Assembly (NCBI GenBank): GCA_022360155.1
Contig: JAKSDJ010000486.1
Span: forward strand, 1 to 45,311
Direction: 5' to 3'
DNA from: Chloroflexales bacterium
GTDB lineage: Bacteria > Chloroflexota > Chloroflexia > Chloroflexales > Chloroflexaceae
DNA length: 45,311 bases
The translations under genes and the position numbers were made by a program. A model generated the notes under the pieces. It was not told the DNA's origin, made no database searches, and saw only the letters and a list, made by a program, of their open reading frames with translations. Below are positions 31,947 through 40,542 of this stretch, piece after piece (position 1 is the first letter of the stretch; each line of letters starts with the position of its first letter).

Positions 31947-32960
31947 TTAGAGGCCGAGCGCTTCTTCGGCTCGTGTTAGGGCAGCGCGTAGCATGATGAT
32001 TTCCTCGCGCAGACGATCACGCTCGGCATGGTGCTGGAAGCGATCACCAACCCGAAGTTGGTATTTGCAGAAGGCCAGTTCGGTGATCAAATGATAAAAC
32101 CGGACAACCTGTTGGTAGCGGGTTAGGTTGCCGCTCAACAGCGTCTGAAAAAGCACGTGCGCCCGGTGCGGGGCAGAAATAACCTCGGCATAATCGGCAG
32201 CGCTGATTATGCCCATCGCAATCTCTTCATCCAGCTCCTGCACCATCCAACTGCGTTCATGCCGCCAAGCAAGCACCGCCACCGCCAACACAGCAGCTAC
32301 ACCCGATGATTGCACAATCCACGAAAATGCAATCCCGGCTAATTGATAGTTCACCGCATAGTTATGCAAGCCATGCATAAATACCGCCAGGAGCAGGGCT
32401 AATGGCAGAGCGACATAGCCGAGCCAACGTTGCGGCGCATAGCGGACTGCGCCAAGAGCTAGTCCGACAATGCTGGTGAAGAAGGCGTGGTTGAAGCCAA
32501 AGAAGACGCTGCGCAGCCAGAATAGACCGCCAAAATTATCGGGGTAAGCGACAAAGAAGAGCAGATTCTCGGTCATCGAGAAGCCAAAGCCGATCAATGA
32601 GCCATAGACAATCCCATCGAGCGGACCATCGAACTCACGGCGAGCAAAGAGGAACAATGCTACCAGCGCTACCGCTTTGAGACCTTCCTCGACGAGCGGC
32701 GCCAGGCCCCACGTCTGAAATCCTGGACCGAGCGACGAGTTGAAGATCGGCGCGTCCAGAACAAACATAACGATGACTGCTAGCACGACTGCAGGCAGCG
32801 ACCCCCACAAAAAAGCCGCGACCAAGAGCGGAAGCGGTTCTTTTTCATAACGGTCGAGCCACCAAATCAGCAATGTATAGATAATCGTTGGTACAACCGC
32901 AGCGAGAATGGCAATGAGGACAAACATGACGATACACGCTGAACGACGAACGGTGAACAT
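31947..32960 (-). CDS. PrsW-family intramembrane metalloprotease-like protein
   Basis: 337 residues, about eight membrane helices then a ~70-residue cytoplasmic helical tail. Conserved PrsW positions are present: LVEEGLKA (Glu91, Glu92, Lys95), TENLLF (Glu131, Asn132), FNHAFFT (His158) and FMHGLHN (His196, His199). Family members such as Bacillus PrsW cut anti-sigma factors inside the membrane. No anti-sigma factor adjoins it here. The long tail is unlike the shortest members and could control access. Start codon uncertain: a Met at position 12 is another choice. It lies 39 bases after the AOR gene in the same direction, perhaps in one transcript. Confidence 0.85.
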   Translation of the reverse strand: MFTVRRSACIVMFVLIAILAAVVPTIIYTLLIWWLDRYEKEPLPLLVAAFLWGSLPAVVLAVIVMFVLDAPIFNSSLGPGFQTWGLAPLVEEGLKAVALVALFLFARREFDGPLDGIVYGSLIGFGFSMTENLLFFVAYPDNFGGLFWLRSVFFGFNHAFFTSIVGLALGAVRYAPQRWLGYVALPLALLLAVFMHGLHNYAVNYQLAGIAFSWIVQSSGVAAVLAVAVLAWRHERSWMVQELDEEIAMGIISAADYAEVISAPHRAHVLFQTLLSGNLTRYQQVVRFYHLITELAFCKYQLRVGDRFQHHAERDRLREEIIMLRAALTRAEEALGL

Positions 32961-32999: not shown

Positions 33000-34805
33000 T
33001 CATTCCTGTTTCAAACGTATTCCTAGCTCAGCTATACGGGTAGGTGTTGGCTCGCCTATGTTATCCCAGCCATGACGGCGATAGTACTCAGCCACAAGAT
33101 CATGCAGCGGCGGAAGATGGCCAGCGGCGCGTCCCTCCTCCAACTCTATCTCACGCCAGCGGGACGGCAGATCGTCTAGACAGCCGTTATCGCAATAGCG
33201 GCGAGCAAAGAGTCGCTCAAGGGTGACGATACGCTCGCCAATCCTGGCTAACTCAGCGCCATTGAGCGACCGGCCGGTGACTGCGTTAATCAGGGCGATC
33301 AGTTCGCCAGGCGAAACTTGGTAGGCCATCAAGCCCAGGCGGCGGCAAACACCGACCGAGTCGAGGACAGCCGCATAGCGTTCGTGCCAGATCAAGCGCA
33401 ACACTTTACCTTTGACTGCGTGTGGATGCGAAGGTTCGTCAGGCAACCACGGCGGCGGCTCAGGTGATAATTCTTCGTACGCCATTGCATAACGATAGTC
33501 GCCGCCTATCGGGGCTGTCGCCATCGCCAGGGCCACCCCCGTCAACGCGCGCGGATCGAGCGCTGGCATTGCAAGGCCTTTGACGTGAGGGGAAAAGGTT
33601 GCGCTCCCCCAGAAGATCTCTTGCATTTCGCCGACACCAAGCGAAAGCACATCCCGTTTATCCTGACGCTGACCCAGCCGTTCAATGGCCAGGATCACTG
33701 CATCGTCATCGCTCCAAGGCAAGGTGCCGGAACGATTCAGGTTCTTCTCCTGGCACTCCATCATAAATGCGATGGCGGCGCTAGTTGCAGCAGGATCGAG
33801 CCCCAGCCGCAAGCATAGATCAGCAATTGCAAGCAGCGCATCAGGGCTGGTAATGCCGCAATGCGCGTTAAACCCAGCAACCAGCTCCAATTCTGGGCGT
33901 GGCATTCTTTGGCCAGTACGAAGCACTATGTCGAAGTAGCAAGGCATCGGGCATTCGACACAGCCTCGATCTTCGCTCGCTTCTCGTGAAGACAACGTGC
34001 CAGCGATACTATTCAGTTTATCGTCTACATATCCATCTTGGCCATTACGCCCAGTCAGCGCACCCCACTCCATCGCCCGTTCCAGATAGTACATACTGCC
34101 GAATTGGCGTATGCTTTTCGCTAGAGCGCTGTTTTGCGTTCGTTTACGAATAATGTCGGTAGCGATTTGGAGCTTGTGTTTGTCGAGCACCGGCAAAGGC
34201 GATCCCCGGCGTACGGCTATTGCCTTGATCCGTTTGTGGGCCATCACCGCCCCAGTTCCGGCTGGCTCAGCCATATAGCGACCTTCAGCAACAATGCTGC
34301 AATACGCGACTCCGGCCTCAGCCGCCGGCCCAACGCAGAGCACAGTATAGTCTACTCCCAATTCCGATTGGAGCGCTGCGGAGGTAGCGCGCGTATCCAA
34401 CCCAAGCAAATGCCTAGCCGGAGACACCTGAACATGATCACCATCAATTTGAATGAAACACCACTCTGGAGATTGACCGCTTATCACCAACAGATCATAG
34501 CCGGACTGGCGCAGCGCAGCGCCCCAGTGGCCCTGCGCCCAAGCATAACCAATGCTGCCGGTGAGCGGTGAGCGCGTACCAACAACAAAACCGCCGGTAG
34601 CAAAGGACTGTATGCCGGCAAGTGAACCAGCGGCAAAGACTAATAGATTCTCAGCGGAGAACGGTGCAGTGTCGGCGGGGAGCCAGTTGTTGAGAAGCCA
34701 CGCAATAGCGCCCCTTCCGCCCAGATAATCCTGCTTGACATCATCTGGGAGAAAGTGACACGCATTGTCCTGACCAAGAGCCACTGTAAGTGCGCGTAGA
34801 GTCAT
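33000..34805 (-). CDS. Aldehyde:ferredoxin oxidoreductase (AOR) family enzyme
   Basis: 601 residues, usual family size. AOR enzymes use a tungsten (or molybdenum) bis-pterin and one [4Fe-4S] cluster to oxidise aldehydes to acids with ferredoxin, or the reverse. Cluster ligands are GCVECPMPC (Cys282, Cys285, Cys289) and a later DSVGVC, the family's fourth ligand. The N-terminal GGRG (29-32) and GTRSPLTGS fit the first domain, which binds the cofactor. The start has AAGGGG just upstream; the ATG 36 bases further up lacks one. It is divergent from a gene for a 16-cysteine polyferredoxin, the probable electron partner. The substrate is not deducible. Confidence 0.9.
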   Translation of the reverse strand: MTLRALTVALGQDNACHFLPDDVKQDYLGGRGAIAWLLNNWLPADTAPFSAENLLVFAAGSLAGIQSFATGGFVVGTRSPLTGSIGYAWAQGHWGAALRQSGYDLLVISGQSPEWCFIQIDGDHVQVSPARHLLGLDTRATSAALQSELGVDYTVLCVGPAAEAGVAYCSIVAEGRYMAEPAGTGAVMAHKRIKAIAVRRGSPLPVLDKHKLQIATDIIRKRTQNSALAKSIRQFGSMYYLERAMEWGALTGRNGQDGYVDDKLNSIAGTLSSREASEDRGCVECPMPCYFDIVLRTGQRMPRPELELVAGFNAHCGITSPDALLAIADLCLRLGLDPAATSAAIAFMMECQEKNLNRSGTLPWSDDDAVILAIERLGQRQDKRDVLSLGVGEMQEIFWGSATFSPHVKGLAMPALDPRALTGVALAMATAPIGGDYRYAMAYEELSPEPPPWLPDEPSHPHAVKGKVLRLIWHERYAAVLDSVGVCRRLGLMAYQVSPGELIALINAVTGRSLNGAELARIGERIVTLERLFARRYCDNGCLDDLPSRWREIELEEGRAAGHLPPLHDLVAEYYRRHGWDNIGEPTPTRIAELGIRLKQE

Positions 34806-34868
34806 GAGACCCCTTGGTATCGGCAAGCTGCAACAATTCATCCATGCTCTCGATGGCCTAGAGCATTG

Positions 34869-34948
34869 CTATTGTACACCATGCCTTGAGACAGAGCAAT
34901 ATTTACCCACAGACCAGAATAAGGCATGGTACAATAGAATTATATAAT
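34869..34948. promoter_or_regulatory. Divergent control region with a long imperfect inverted repeat
   Basis: CTATTGTAcaCCATGCCTT (34869-34887, with two extra bases) is the reverse complement of AAGGCATGGTACAATAG (34921-34937). Each arm carries an outward TACAAT -10-like box. On the minus side TTGCTC-17 bp-TACAAT makes a fair promoter for AOR. On the plus side TATAAT (34943-34948) lacks a -35, consistent with an activator bound over the arm. It probably lets one regulator control both divergent genes. Confidence 0.55.
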
Positions 34949-34998
34949 ACCATTAACTAAGCAAGTTCGTGCGCTTCTGCACGAGATGAGGTGGCACG

Positions 34999-36459
34999 AT
35001 GGCGTCAAAAATGGCGCAAAGGCTACCATCCTCTAAATCAGGTATCCAGAGCATCGCGCTTGTTCAGCAGCACGAAGATCAGCGGCACGAGGGACTAGCA
35101 ACACTGCAAAGGTTAGATTGTTTGCATCAGGTCTCGACTGAAGAGTTGAGTCGCCTGCTTGATCTTTGTGTATTGCGCGCATTTATTCCCGGTGCAACAC
35201 TGATCAGTGAGTGTGAGGCCAGCCGCTTCTTGTACTTTTTGTTACAAGGAGATGTTCAATTAACCTCGCATGACCGCGATGGTCATGAGATATTGGTCGG
35301 TGTGCTTGGTCGCGGCGATTGTTGTGGCGAGGGACAACTCTTTGGCAACTTCTTCCGCCGCGCGCGGGTCCGCGCCAATACTGTCTGCTATGCGCTCCAG
35401 GTTGCGCTATCCGACATACAAGTGCTGCTTCCGTCTCTGCCAACCCTTCGTGCAGCCCTCCGCGAGATCCATCGCCGCCGTATGGTCGAGAGCACCCTGG
35501 TTCGTGTACCGCTCTTTAGTCAGCTACTCCCGCTGGAACGACTGGCCCTAGCTGCGCTGCTCCAAAGGTCGCATTACCCCCGTGGCAGCGTGATTGTGCG
35601 GCATGGCGAGCCCGGCGAGGCGCTTTGTTTGATCGAGTCTGGCCAGATTGTTGTCGAACAGAACGGCGTAACGATAGCCTCTCTACAAGAGGGCGACTTC
35701 TTTGGCGAAATTGCGTTGCTTTCCGATCGACCACATAACGCAACAGTGCGGGCTTTCACTGCGACCGACATCCTGGCTCTGCCCGCCGCCGATTTTCACT
35801 GGCTTCTAGTGCAACGACCTGAACTTGAAGCGCAATTACGGACTGTTGTCGAGCAACGTTTGAACCATAATGCCACGATGCGCACCGACCAAGACCGCGT
35901 GCGGAATTTGACCTTAGCGGTTGAAAACGGCTTGTTGCGTGGAAGTCACCTGTTAGTCCGCACCCCGGAGCTTTGCCCGCCGGGTTGCCGCATCTGTGAG
36001 GACGCCTGCGCTTCTCGGCATGGTCAAACCCGCTTGCACCTCAACGGTGTACAAATTGGCGATTTCGACGTCGTCGATACATGTCGACAGTGTCGGATTG
36101 ATGCCGAATGTGTCGAGGTTTGTCCTGAAGACGCCATTCAGTGGAATGATCAGGGCGCGCTGATAATCACTGATAAATGTACTGGCTGCGGCGAATGTGT
36201 ACTCGCCTGCCCCTATGATGCTGTGACACAAAAGCCGCTTCAACCTCATCAGCCTAACGGACCGCTCTGGAAACTCTGGTCGGCGATGCAGCAGCGGCTC
36301 AACAATCAACGCCATATCATCCCCCTCGATCCGGTCCAGTATACATACCGCGCCGATAAATGCGACTTGTGCCACAACTATGATAACTTAGCATGTCTCA
36401 GCGCTTGTCCAACCGGTTCACTCCGGCTCATGCCGGTTGAAGAGCTATTCCCTCTCTGA
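34999..36459 (+). CDS. Two cyclic-nucleotide-binding-like domains fused to a four-cluster polyferredoxin
   Basis: 486 residues. Residues ~40-160 and ~170-290 are two cNMP-binding folds (GATLISE, RFLYFLLQGDVQL, CGEGQLFGNFFRRARVRA; then RGSVIVRHGEPGEALCLIESG, shown here in part, and FGEIALLSDRPHNATV). No helix-turn-helix follows, so this is not a CRP-type DNA binder. Residues 320-475 have 16 cysteines in four groups (326/330/333/337, 362/365/371/375, 394/397/400/404, 455/458/466/470), the pattern of four-cluster ferredoxin subunits such as DmsB. In the second domain the usual phosphate-binding Arg is His246. It is divergent to AOR, so its Fe-S part is probably AOR's electron carrier, with the cNMP part sensing or gating. 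The name of a known family is not certain. Confidence 0.85.
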   Translation: MASKMAQRLPSSKSGIQSIALVQQHEDQRHEGLATLQRLDCLHQVSTEELSRLLDLCVLRAFIPGATLISECEASRFLYFLLQGDVQLTSHDRDGHEILVGVLGRGDCCGEGQLFGNFFRRARVRANTVCYALQVALSDIQVLLPSLPTLRAALREIHRRRMVESTLVRVPLFSQLLPLERLALAALLQRSHYPRGSVIVRHGEPGEALCLIESGQIVVEQNGVTIASLQEGDFFGEIALLSDRPHNATVRAFTATDILALPAADFHWLLVQRPELEAQLRTVVEQRLNHNATMRTDQDRVRNLTLAVENGLLRGSHLLVRTPELCPPGCRICEDACASRHGQTRLHLNGVQIGDFDVVDTCRQCRIDAECVEVCPEDAIQWNDQGALIITDKCTGCGECVLACPYDAVTQKPLQPHQPNGPLWKLWSAMQQRLNNQRHIIPLDPVQYTYRADKCDLCHNYDNLACLSACPTGSLRLMPVEELFPL

Positions 36460-36871
36460 CAATCCACTGATACTGTAACAAAAGTCGGACTCTACAGACA
36501 CCAACAGTGAAGGTAACATGGCTGCTCATTACAAATCTTAAGAAGCTGTCTGCAGCGTAAGTCTGATAAGAGTCGACTGACTGGCGTACCAAATCACAGC
36601 GCTTACTGCTTGGAGTGGCGGCGTTGTTTTTGCATCCGCAAGACCAGATTGAGTGAAACCTCGCTCCTTCAAGTGAGACCTTGTTAGACGGTTTTTATAC
36701 ACTGGCAACGTTTTGATCATGACGACTATAAACTGTCATACCATTTCGATGTACATGCCCCGCCCGTCATGCCAAGCGGAGCCGCCGGACTCAGGATACT
36801 GATTTTCATAGTTGCGGACAGCTCACAGGGCCAGGATTACCGATATAAGCTAATCATCAGGAAGGGGTTCA
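36460..36871. other. Spacer upstream of the NDH-2 gene
   Basis: No firm gene. A 60-codon minus-strand frame (36538-36720) starting MIKTLPVYKNRLTRSHLKER has ordinary composition but no family I recognise and could be an eroded gene. The rest is AT-rich sequence leading to the NDH-2 ribosome site. Confidence 0.4.
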
Positions 36872-38662
36872 ATGCATAACTATTTACGACGAGGAATTAT
36901 TGGGTTACTGGCAGGGTTGGCAAGCAGTACTGTCCTGATGGCCACACTGGACCAGATGATCGTAGGCATTGGGCTCGGCGGACTGCTCGGCATCGGGTAC
37001 GCTCTGGCCTTCCGCTCCGAGCGCTACGCCTATGCCGACAGCATTATGACTACGGCGGCCTTTGGCATTCCGCTCTGGGGTTTGTTCAGTGTGATTATAC
37101 TGCCCTTTCTGATGGGCCAGGGGCCACAGTGGAATGCCGCCGGAATGCTGTCATTGTTTCCTGCTCTTGTGGGATGGGTGCTTTATGGGGCTGGGTTAGG
37201 GCTTCTCAATCAGGCCTTCAACGATCTGTTCTTGCAGTTGCTAGGCCCAGAACCTAGCAAAAAACCGCAGCCACGCGAGATCAAGACTCGAATTGTCATC
37301 CTAGGGGGCGGTTTTGCCGGGGTGACCACAGCACAGTACCTTGAGCAAGAATTTGGCCCGGACCCCACAGTATCTTTCACGCTTATCAGTGATACCAATG
37401 CGCTGCTCTTCACCCCTATGCTAGCCGAGGTAGCATCGAGCAGCCTGGAGCCAGGTGAAATCAGTACACCGCTACGTACGTCGCTGCGCCGCACCGATGT
37501 CATCCGCCAACACATAGAGCGGATCGATCTGGAGAATCGACAGGTTCTGCTTGCAGCAGACGATCAATCGCCTGCACGTCAGGCGCCGTTCGATCACTTG
37601 GTGCTTGCGCTTGGCTCGGTCTCGAACTTCCTCGGCCTAACCAATGTCGAGAACCATTCCCTCGACTTCAAAAGCTTGCGCGACGCGATCATCATTCGCA
37701 ACCACGTGATTGATATGTTCGAGCGGGCCGACCGTGAGCCAGACCCCGAGCTTCGCAAGACGCTGTTGACCTTCGTGATTGCGGGAGGAGGCTTTGCAGG
37801 AGCCGAATTGGCCGGCGGCTTAAACGACTTTGTACGGGGCATGTTGGCTTTCTACCCTAACATTACGCCTGAAGACGTACAAATCGTCCTAGTTCACTCT
37901 CGCGAACGCATCTTACCGGAGCTGAGTGAACCGCTCGCCGACTACGCGCTCAAGAAAATGGAGGAGCGCGGTGTAACCTTCAAACTTAATACCCGTGTCG
38001 CTGATGCACATTCCAGCGGCGTGATCCTCAATCCGACTGAAGAGATCCGTGCGCAAACCCTCGTTTGGACTGCTGGTACAACCCCCAACCCGCTGATCAA
38101 GCAATTGCCAGTCGAACGCAATAAGCGCGGCGCGTTGATAGTGGACGGAACGATGGCGGCGCCCGGTTTTCCAGGAGTTTGGGCTCTAGGTGACTGTGCA
38201 GCCGTACCCAACGCCAAAGACGGCCAGATCAGCCCGCCAACAGCTCAGTTCGCGTTACGTCAGGCCTATACGCTAGCCTACAATATCCACGCCAGCATAA
38301 CAGGCAAACCGCTCAAGACCTTCGACTTTGCTGTGCAGGGTGTATTATGCGTTATTGGTCACCATAATGCCTGTGCTGAACTCGTTATTCCATTTTCCGG
38401 CGACAAGACCATGCGTTTCTCCGGACTCTTCGCCTGGTTTTTGTGGCGTGGCGTCTACTTGAGCAAATTGCCAGGCTTGGAGCGTAAAGTCCGCGTGGTC
38501 CTTGCATGGATTGTCGAGTTGTTCTTCCCGCGCGATATCGTACAGACCATTGATATCAGGCGTCCCTTCACGCAGCGTCGCACTGTGCAGTCCGACGCTC
38601 AGAGCATGCCGGCAGAAGTTGTAGCTAGCGGCGCCAAACAATTGGAACAAGGACGAATGTAA
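36872..38662 (+). CDS. ndh: Type II NADH dehydrogenase (NDH-2) with N-terminal membrane module
   Basis: 596 residues. The flavoenzyme body starts at 139 with [15 protein letters not shown] (FAD), has a second nucleotide fold at [15 protein letters not shown] (NADH) and the family's ALGDCA motif. It oxidises NADH and reduces quinone at the membrane without pumping protons. The C-terminal part ([18 protein letters not shown]) is the usual membrane-binding amphipathic region. Unusually, residues 10-115 add three to four membrane helices ([28 protein letters not shown]), the same module that is repeated in the next gene. Ribosome site GGAAGGGG. Its stop is one base before the next start, so the two genes form an operon. 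Confidence 0.9.
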
Positions 38663-38663
38663 T

Positions 38664-40079
38664 ATGCAAACAATATTAAATCCTAGGTTTATCGCCTGTA
38701 TCATCGTTGGCGCCATAGGCGGCGCTATTGCGGCGTTGGCAACCGGCGCAGGTTTGGTGTTGATGTTGGGGCTTGGCGCGATCTATGGGCTGCTGTTTGG
38801 TCTGATTGCGCTACCGCGTGCATTCAGTCCTGGCTCAGGGTTGCTCTGGGGGTTGGGATATGCATTCTTGTTATGGCTCGTTGTGCCTATCGGCCTGTTG
38901 CCGCTTTTCAGCAATGGTGCAACGATGGGAATGATCGAGACAGCCCGCACACAATTTCCTGACCTGGTTGCCTATTTGCTCTGCATCGGCGTACCTCTAG
39001 GGTTGGTGATGGGCAGTTGGAATGTGCTCTCGGGCCAACCGGGGCACTTCAGCTTACAACCTTTTAGCCTGCCCCGGGCAGTGGTCGTTGGCGGGTTGGC
39101 GGGTTTGTTCGGCGGCTGGGCTTTTGGCGCTTGGATGGAACAGGCTGGGCTTTTTCCGCTTGTGGCCGGCCTGCTTAATTCAACCTCGCGCGATATCGGT
39201 GTGACGCTTCACTTTCTCATCGCAGTGTTCATTGGCGGTAGTTTCGGCTTGCTCTTCCAGCGCGATGTGCGTGGCTACGGTTCAAGTATGGGCTGGGGGG
39301 TAGCCTATGGCATGCTCTGGTGGTTCCTCGGGTCGCTGACCTTGTTTCCCCTCTTCAATGGTAATCCGGTTGACTGGTCGTACATCCAAGCCGGAGCTCA
39401 ATTCGGCGCACTGGTCGGGCATATTATCTATGGGGTGCTGCTAGGCGTTATCTACGCTGCGCTGGACCAGCTATGGCTTGGCTTCTTCGTTGCTTCAGAC
39501 CCAATCAACCGTGAGCCAGAAGGCCCAGGAACACAGACATTGCGCTCGCTGGGGTGGGGGGCATTGGCAAGCCTTGCCGGAGGATTGCTATTCAGCCTGC
39601 TGATGGTGGCGACCAATGTGCTTCCCAATATTGCCCAACTCGTTGGCAGTTCATCACCACTGACAGGCTTTGTTGTACATATGGTCATCAGCGCACTTAT
39701 CGGCATGAGCTATGGTGTTCTCTTCCAACGCGAGTCGCCTGATGCCGGGTCAAGTGTTGCGTGGGGATTGGTGTACGGCTTGATCTGGTGGTTCTTGGGC
39801 GCCTTGACCTTGTTGCCGCTTCTGCTTGGCGGATCACTGACCTGGAATATCACTGCTGCCGGAGCCACCTTACCCTCACTGCTTGGTCACTTGGTTTATG
39901 GCGCGGTTATCGCCTTTGTCTTTCTACGGTTGGAACACCGTCACGCCGCATGGCTGCAACTTGATCCGCGCATCGCTGCCCGTGAAGAACGTCGCCGGCG
40001 GCCAATTGGCACACCTGCGCCAGCCTTGTGGTTGTTCGCACTTGGAGTTGGGGTATTAACGCCCATTCTTCTGCAGTAG
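38664..40079 (+). CDS. Polytopic membrane protein made of three repeats, partner of NDH-2
   Basis: 471 residues, mostly glycine-rich membrane helices. The unit occurs three times, about residues 10-115, 139-268 and 296-422. Marks are GSSMGWGVAYGMLWWFLGSL with FPLF and GHIIYGVLLG in unit two, and GSSVAWGLVYGLIWWFLGAL with LPLL and GHLVYGAVIA in unit three; unit one is more diverged (GSGLLWGLGYAFLLW). The N-terminal module of the preceding NDH-2 is a single unit. It has no catalytic motif I know. Immediate coupling to NDH-2 suggests a membrane platform or quinone-access partner; this is inference. A short basic loop (440-447) precedes a final helix. Confidence 0.85.
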   Translation: MQTILNPRFIACIIVGAIGGAIAALATGAGLVLMLGLGAIYGLLFGLIALPRAFSPGSGLLWGLGYAFLLWLVVPIGLLPLFSNGATMGMIETARTQFPDLVAYLLCIGVPLGLVMGSWNVLSGQPGHFSLQPFSLPRAVVVGGLAGLFGGWAFGAWMEQAGLFPLVAGLLNSTSRDIGVTLHFLIAVFIGGSFGLLFQRDVRGYGSSMGWGVAYGMLWWFLGSLTLFPLFNGNPVDWSYIQAGAQFGALVGHIIYGVLLGVIYAALDQLWLGFFVASDPINREPEGPGTQTLRSLGWGALASLAGGLLFSLLMVATNVLPNIAQLVGSSSPLTGFVVHMVISALIGMSYGVLFQRESPDAGSSVAWGLVYGLIWWFLGALTLLPLLLGGSLTWNITAAGATLPSLLGHLVYGAVIAFVFLRLEHRHAAWLQLDPRIAAREERRRRPIGTPAPALWLFALGVGVLTPILLQ

Positions 40080-40272: not shown

Positions 40273-40542
40273 TTATTCTTTGGGCGCTTGGCTGCGGTCC
40301 TGGGTATAGAGCTTGAGGTTGACGACCGTTTTGCTGAGTTGGCGTACGGCGGCATGCATCTGCTCGAAAATAGCCTCATAGTCGTCTTCGGTGATCGGGT
40401 CTTCATCATCGGTCAGGCGTTTGAGTTGATTTCCTAGCAAGCTGACCGGGTTATACAACTCATATGCCAATGTAGTAAGGATCTGATCTGGCGTCAGGTT
40501 TGCCCAAGCATGTGAGTCGTGTCGATTTGACTGTTCCTTCAT
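40273..40542 (-). CDS. Stand-alone degenerate histidine-kinase dimerisation (HisKA-like) domain
   Basis: 89 residues with a good ribosome site (GGAG). LTTLAYELYNPVSLLGNQLKRL has the spacing of the HisKA helix (cf. SHELRNPL...) but the phosphoacceptor His is Tyr27, and no ATPase domain follows. A second helix (60-82) would complete the four-helix-bundle hairpin. It could dimerise with or block a real kinase or bind a response regulator. No two-component genes lie in the window. The resemblance was seen by eye and needs profile confirmation. Confidence 0.7.
   Translation of the reverse strand: MKEQSNRHDSHAWANLTPDQILTTLAYELYNPVSLLGNQLKRLTDDEDPITEDDYEAIFEQMHAAVRQLSKTVVNLKLYTQDRSQAPKE

Follow-up and report, generated by a model that had tools for sequence, protein, structure and literature searches.

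The closest described systems to the locus analyzed here are tungsten aldehyde oxidoreductases (AORs), which are known with bare polyferredoxin subunits. In AorABC of Aromatoleum aromaticum (8c0z; PMC10413684), an AOR subunit is combined with the four-[4Fe-4S] polyferredoxin AorA, which has no cyclic nucleotide (cNMP) domains, and with AorC, a FAD/NAD subunit. WOR5/ASOR of Pyrococcus furiosus (6x6u) likewise joins an AOR subunit to a four-cluster beta subunit and has no regulatory domain. The same absence of fused cNMP domains applies to the small subunit of WOR1/electron-bifurcating WorLS + WorABC (9mqx, entitled an electron-bifurcating tungstopyranopterin aldehyde oxidoreductase; PMC12096430) and to HycB3 and HycB4 of HDCR (7qv7), whose partners are a hydrogenase and a formate dehydrogenase. 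We found no report of an electron outlet of this kind that carries nucleotide-sensing domains, and a search of the literature on Chloroflexus AORs or cNMP-ferredoxin fusions found nothing relevant; the word "aldehyde" is absent from the C. aurantiacus genome paper (PMC3150298).

The window, that is, the whole stretch of 45,311 nucleotides that was analyzed, belongs to an assembly of 8.9 Mb from a member of the Chloroflexales, and in it an AOR-family gene stands divergent from a gene for two cyclic nucleotide-binding domains (CNBDs) fused to a polyferredoxin. We named the fusion protein CNFD (for cNMP-cNMP-4x[4Fe-4S] protein) and refer to homologues of the window AOR, at roughly 45% identity or above, as AOR-A. 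Like AorABC and WOR5/ASOR, the locus combines an AOR subunit with four [4Fe-4S] clusters in a second protein; unlike AorABC and WorLS + WorABC, no AorC-like or WorABC-like neighbors were seen at the window locus, and the alignment of AOR-A to WOR5 is partial. Glu331, Tyr443 and His464 are used by AorB, and of these only the Glu is retained in AOR-A. CNFD shares two CNBDs and the Glu(+9)Arg cassette with the regulatory parts of PKA and PKG, but its output would be a ferredoxin domain as opposed to a kinase, and its cassette 2 has His for Arg. If the gating proposed below is true, a second messenger would directly control a chain of Fe-S electron transfer, and this is testable in cultivated C. 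aurantiacus, a model phototroph in which the genes occur. Genes of the AOR-A and CNFD type are presumably also present in cultivated Roseiflexus and Herpetosiphon.

Gene content of the window

The four open reading frames named in the first-pass annotation, an AOR divergent from a protein with two cNMP domains and a four-cluster ferredoxin, followed by an NDH-2 and a membrane protein, were all found to be real, since their positions in the ORF list and their curated Pfam domains agree (Table 1). The true start of AOR-A is probably at 34805 (601 aa), 12 codons downstream of the listed start at 34841, because its homologues begin at residue 13 and an RBS-like site (AAGGGG) lies upstream of the ATG. 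The PrsW gene is likely co-transcribed with AOR-A. Beyond the membrane protein, positions 40273-40542 encode an 89-aa protein that resembles, by eye, a lone histidine-kinase dimerization segment and has no Pfam match.

Table 1. Features of the AOR-A/CNFD locus and adjoining genes, in window positions.
Feature	Positions	Strand	Details
PrsW-type intramembrane protease	31947..32960	(-)	Pfam PrsW-protease E 4e-36; 39 bp behind AOR-A
AOR-family protein (AOR-A clade)	33000..34841	(-)	613 aa as listed; Pfam AFOR_N E 2e-50, AFOR_C E 6e-78
AOR-A fourth cluster ligand C499	33345-33347	(-)	aligned to Pyrococcus AOR C494
AOR-A signature D448-Y449-R450	33492..33500	(-)	canonical AORs have Cys447-His448 there
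AOR-A [4Fe-4S] loop C294-x2-C297-x3-C301	33939..33962	(-)	aligned to Pyrococcus AOR C288/C291/C295
Intergenic inverted repeat CTATTGTACACCATGCCTTG ... TAAGGCATGGTACAATAG	34869..34938	none	probable divergent promoter/operator, from sequence
CNFD, tandem CNBDs + four-[4Fe-4S] polyferredoxin	34999..36459	(+)	486 aa; two Pfam cNMP_binding domains
CNFD phosphate-binding cassette 1, GDCCGEGQLFGNFFRRARVRA	35314..35376	(+)	Glu111 and Arg120 kept
CNFD phosphate-binding cassette 2, GDFFGEIALLSDRPHNATVRA	35692..35754	(+)	Glu237 kept; phosphate Arg replaced by His246
CNFD polyferredoxin domain	35941..36456	(+)	16 invariant cysteines in four groups
NDH-2-like flavoprotein, N-terminal membrane module	36872..38662	(+)	Pyr_redox_2 E 6e-44, NDH2_C E 1.4e-8
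Repeat membrane protein	38664..40079	(+)	weak DUF1440 match, E 7e-10

Structure and conserved residues of AOR-A and CNFD

The AFOR_N and AFOR_C domains span the full length of AOR-A, and its AlphaFold2 model (pLDDT 88.7) has the full AOR fold, with a Foldseek TM-score of 0.91 against 1aor and one of about 0.9 against 9mqx_D, the latter being the best match both by sequence and by fold E-value. The window protein keeps all four [4Fe-4S] ligands (C294, C297, C301 and C499) as well as, in Pyrococcus numbering, Glu313 and the cofactor-site residues Asp343 and Asp489. Replacements in the same numbering were Arg76 to Gly, Asn93 to Trp, Arg182 to Tyr, Tyr312 to Leu, Asp338 to Leu, Tyr427 to Leu, His448 to Tyr and Tyr452 to Met. 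In most aldehyde oxidizers there is a conserved second shell of Thr243, Glu313, Tyr427 and His448 (reviewed in PMC12096430); with Ser, Glu, Leu and Tyr at these positions, the window AOR-A departs from the aldehyde-oxidizer pattern. AOR-A proteins form a single clade (tree support 100/100) that has lost Tyr427, His448, Tyr312, Arg76 and Arg182 and usually keeps the Fe-S cysteines. Among 33 sequences, the position of His448 is occupied by Y, A, F or V, with H in three, and two residues have newly become invariant, Asp448 and Arg450 in the numbering of the window protein. The aldehyde oxidation that had been attributed to this locus is weakened by these results: because the clade lacks several conserved active-site residues, such activity appears doubtful for AOR-A and should not be assumed. 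The altered pocket suggests an undescribed AOR-family reaction and is a warning against annotating proteins of this clade as aldehyde oxidoreductases.

Beyond its cluster ligands AOR-A has a single invariant cysteine, C343, and Pyrococcus AOR also has a cysteine at the aligned position; as judged from conservation and this alignment, no candidate for an extra Cys metal ligand of the BamB/YdhV type was apparent. Cluster ligands have been lost in two groups in which the other key residues are intact: in genus g3 (G005 L069 5418-7211; G004 L131 3678-5573) all three cysteines of the CxxCxxxC loop are gone, and in two genomes of family f3 (G054 and G055; L125 and L126) the first loop cysteine is gone. 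These losses would break the electron path in g3 and in the two f3 genomes. The absence of pterin synthesis was considered as a sign of an AOR-A without cofactor and was uninformative, as almost all genomes of the order have MoaA. A second AOR of the same genome (G000:C205, L142 4618-6471) has canonical active-site residues and adjoins a MoeA-like gene; it and its relatives keep the second-shell residues and are located by MoaD- or MoeA-like genes.

In the AlphaFold2 model of CNFD (pLDDT 86, with the relative placement of the domains uncertain), the CNBDs match the regulatory tandem CNBDs of PKA-R and PKG by Foldseek. The matches include the guanosine-bound kinetoplastid PKA-R (6hyq), a precedent for a changed choice of ligand. 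Cassette 1 has the canonical GE(+9)R spacing, with E111 in 31 and R120 in 30 of the 38 CNFD sequences, and in cassette 2 E237 is present in 36 of the 38 and H246, at the position of the Arg, in 34. Cassette 1 is degenerate in CNFDs of the Herpetosiphon type, as are both cassettes in genus g34. The cysteines of the ferredoxin domain are arranged as C-x3-C-x2-C-x3-C, C-x2-C-x5-C-x3-C, C-x2-C-x2-C-x3-C and C-x2-C-x7-C-x3-C, and all 16 are invariant in the 38 sequences, those of g3 included. The nearest solved chains to this domain were HycB3 and HycB4, which scored highest, 9mqx_E, the WOR5 beta subunit and AorA; the last three, which are AOR partner subunits, matched with E-values of 4e-10 to 1e-8, so that the domain is of a kind that serves as partner to known AORs. 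No other polyferredoxin of the CNFD type was found in the genome, which contains several class III cyclase domains.

Distribution and gene neighborhood

CNFD was identified in 71 of the 82 genomes of the order Chloroflexales, and when 400 genomes sampled from the phylum were searched, all matches fell inside the order. Its architecture was common to five members from different families in a Pfam scan. A scan of genome contigs for such fusions in other phyla, which used exact short peptides and is a weak negative, returned one genome of the same order and otherwise matches to the cNMP part only, and in those proteins the ferredoxin motif was absent from the matching frame. AOR-A was identified in 56 of the 82 genomes. 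All 45 AOR-A genomes that are at least 90% complete have CNFD, and 15 near-complete genomes lack AOR-A, 11 of them with CNFD; among near-complete genomes, CNFD is thus missing only where AOR-A is missing as well (p 0.003 for co-occurrence among near-complete genomes, phylogeny ignored). CNFD without AOR-A occurs in most of family f3, in genus g34 and in several genomes of f1, the family of the window, and in one genome (G029) PrsW and CNFD remain and the AOR is gone. Because CNFD is also found without AOR-A, it has another partner or role besides AOR-A; these genomes, together with the g3 AOR that has lost its cluster, show that the pairing is not required in all cases. The only position of CNFD that was specific to AOR-bearing genomes was G101, which was of no help in telling the two groups apart.

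In 26 further f1 genomes, as in the window, AOR-A and CNFD are divergent neighbors, a recurrence that speaks against a chance arrangement; the exceptions are a contig break or a separation of the genes in G004, G021, G024 and G037. The conserved neighborhood proposed in the first-pass annotation therefore stands for this pair, but not for the NDH-2 and membrane protein genes, which are found elsewhere in three other genomes, as described below. In families f2 and f4 both AOR-A and CNFD are present and unlinked, and their neighbors are housekeeping-like genes such as tsaB/tsaE (identified by eye). The PrsW gene follows AOR-A in three families (f1, f2 and f4). A proB-like gene with no obvious functional link recurs behind AOR-A in f1, and since this unrelated gene is also a frequent neighbor of the AOR, part of the AOR-A/CNFD linkage may be plain synteny; taken alone, the linkage is evidence of moderate weight.

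The spacer between the two genes has features of its own. Back-to-back -10 elements resembling CTATTATAC-N15..29-TRTGNTACAA were identified in 18 of the 26 distinct f1 AOR-A/CNFD spacers, and zero such paired elements were expected in base-shuffled spacers. Most relatives have elements like CTATTATAC-N15..18-TRTGGTACAAT, spaced by 15-18 bp, and the window spacer has an inverted-repeat version with longer spacing. Within about 0.92 Mb of related DNA that was scanned, the paired element was restricted to AOR-A/CNFD spacers. Such a back-to-back promoter suggests that transcription of AOR-A and CNFD is coupled or mutually exclusive. No second ferredoxin gene was found beside AOR-A in the AOR-A neighborhoods examined.

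A proposed AOR-A/CNFD partnership and its alternatives

As read from the gene order, the conserved unit at this locus is the divergent pair of AOR-A and CNFD. We consider the chances about even that AOR-A exchanges electrons with the CNFD polyferredoxin and that nucleotide binding acts as a switch, the complex, the ligand binding, the gating and the substrate all being predicted. AOR-A would be a tungsto- or molybdo-bis-pterin enzyme of AOR fold with a rebuilt pocket, and CNFD would serve as its electron-transfer subunit, substituting for AorA, Wor1S or the beta subunit of WOR5, with electrons passing between the pterin site, the [4Fe-4S] cluster of the AOR and the four-cluster ferredoxin domain of CNFD. 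The tandem CNBDs would sense a cyclic or related nucleotide, site 1 being canonical in f1 and site 2 having His for Arg, and its binding would alter either how the ferredoxin domain docks or its output, and so gate catalysis allosterically. The pairing is favored because of the divergent arrangement in f1, the 45/45 co-occurrence and the homology of the ferredoxin domain to AOR-partner subunits. It is further supported by the best matches of AOR-A and of the ferredoxin domain, 9mqx_D and 9mqx_E, being chains of the same complex, and by CNFD being the sole such polyferredoxin found in the genome, with no other ferredoxin beside AOR-A. The 16 invariant cysteines, the GE(+9)R motif of cassette 1 and the class III cyclase domains of the genome also speak for the model. 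Points against the model are the unlinked genes of f2 and f4, CNFD without AOR-A, the cluster losses in g3 and f3, and the degenerate cassettes of the Herpetosiphon type and of g34. The fuller reading, of a polyferredoxin directly switched by a second messenger that serves an enzyme of AOR fold whose rebuilt site does not act on aldehydes and is native to the Chloroflexales, including Chloroflexus aurantiacus, is judged less likely than not.

Alternatively, CNFD may be an independent nucleotide-gated or nucleotide-sensing carrier for some other, more widely shared oxidoreductase, with its adjacency to AOR-A in f1 reflecting only inherited synteny or shared regulation. The genomes with CNFD and no AOR-A agree with this, as do G029, with its retained PrsW and CNFD, the proB-like gene that has likewise stayed close to the pair with no evident function, and g3, in which AOR-A lost cluster ligands while CNFD kept its 16 cysteines. 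We nevertheless regard it as rather unlikely, given that every near-complete AOR-A genome has CNFD, that HycB and the partner subunits of AORs are the closest matches of the ferredoxin domain, and that the intergenic promoter element is conserved. CNFD could also be a signaling protein, in which the Fe-S clusters sense redox state or oxygen and the CNBDs bind or release a nucleotide or partner protein, with AOR-A making or removing the signal instead of employing CNFD as an electron carrier. The resemblance of the tandem CNBDs to PKA/PKG regulatory parts, the altered active site of AOR-A and the absence from CNFD of any DNA-binding or catalytic domain (Pfam) are in keeping with such a role, but the full set of four clusters, laid out as in electron-transfer subunits, is retained in the ferredoxin domain, and we judge this explanation improbable.

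The AOR, CNFD, NDH-2 and membrane protein genes lie within about 7 kb on this one contig, and a single aldehyde-to-quinone module, with electrons passing to the quinone pool via NDH-2, had been suggested from that arrangement. The comparison with other genomes did not support this route, and such a module is now highly improbable. Homologues of the NDH-2 with at least 58% identity occur in three further genomes (G005, G021 and G050), in each of which the NDH-2 gene is followed by that for the same membrane protein, with neither AOR-A nor CNFD close by; G050 has no AOR-A, and the AOR-A/CNFD pair of G005 is on another contig. The NDH-2/membrane protein pair was not found in any other AOR-A or CNFD neighborhood examined, and in the window a gap of 412 bp separates CNFD from NDH-2. 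Nothing points to NDH-2 as the final acceptor for the AOR-A/CNFD pair. We judge NDH-2 and the membrane protein to be a two-gene unit of their own that occurs in four of the order's genomes and is not part of the AOR module; that the two belong together is indicated by the homology between the N-terminal module of NDH-2 and the membrane protein's repeats (E 3e-13). In another genome (G041, L141 7399-11698), an NDH-2 forms a fusion with cNMP-binding and FHA domains and is encoded beside another cNMP/FHA protein, which makes it a second fusion of nucleotide and redox domains in the order.
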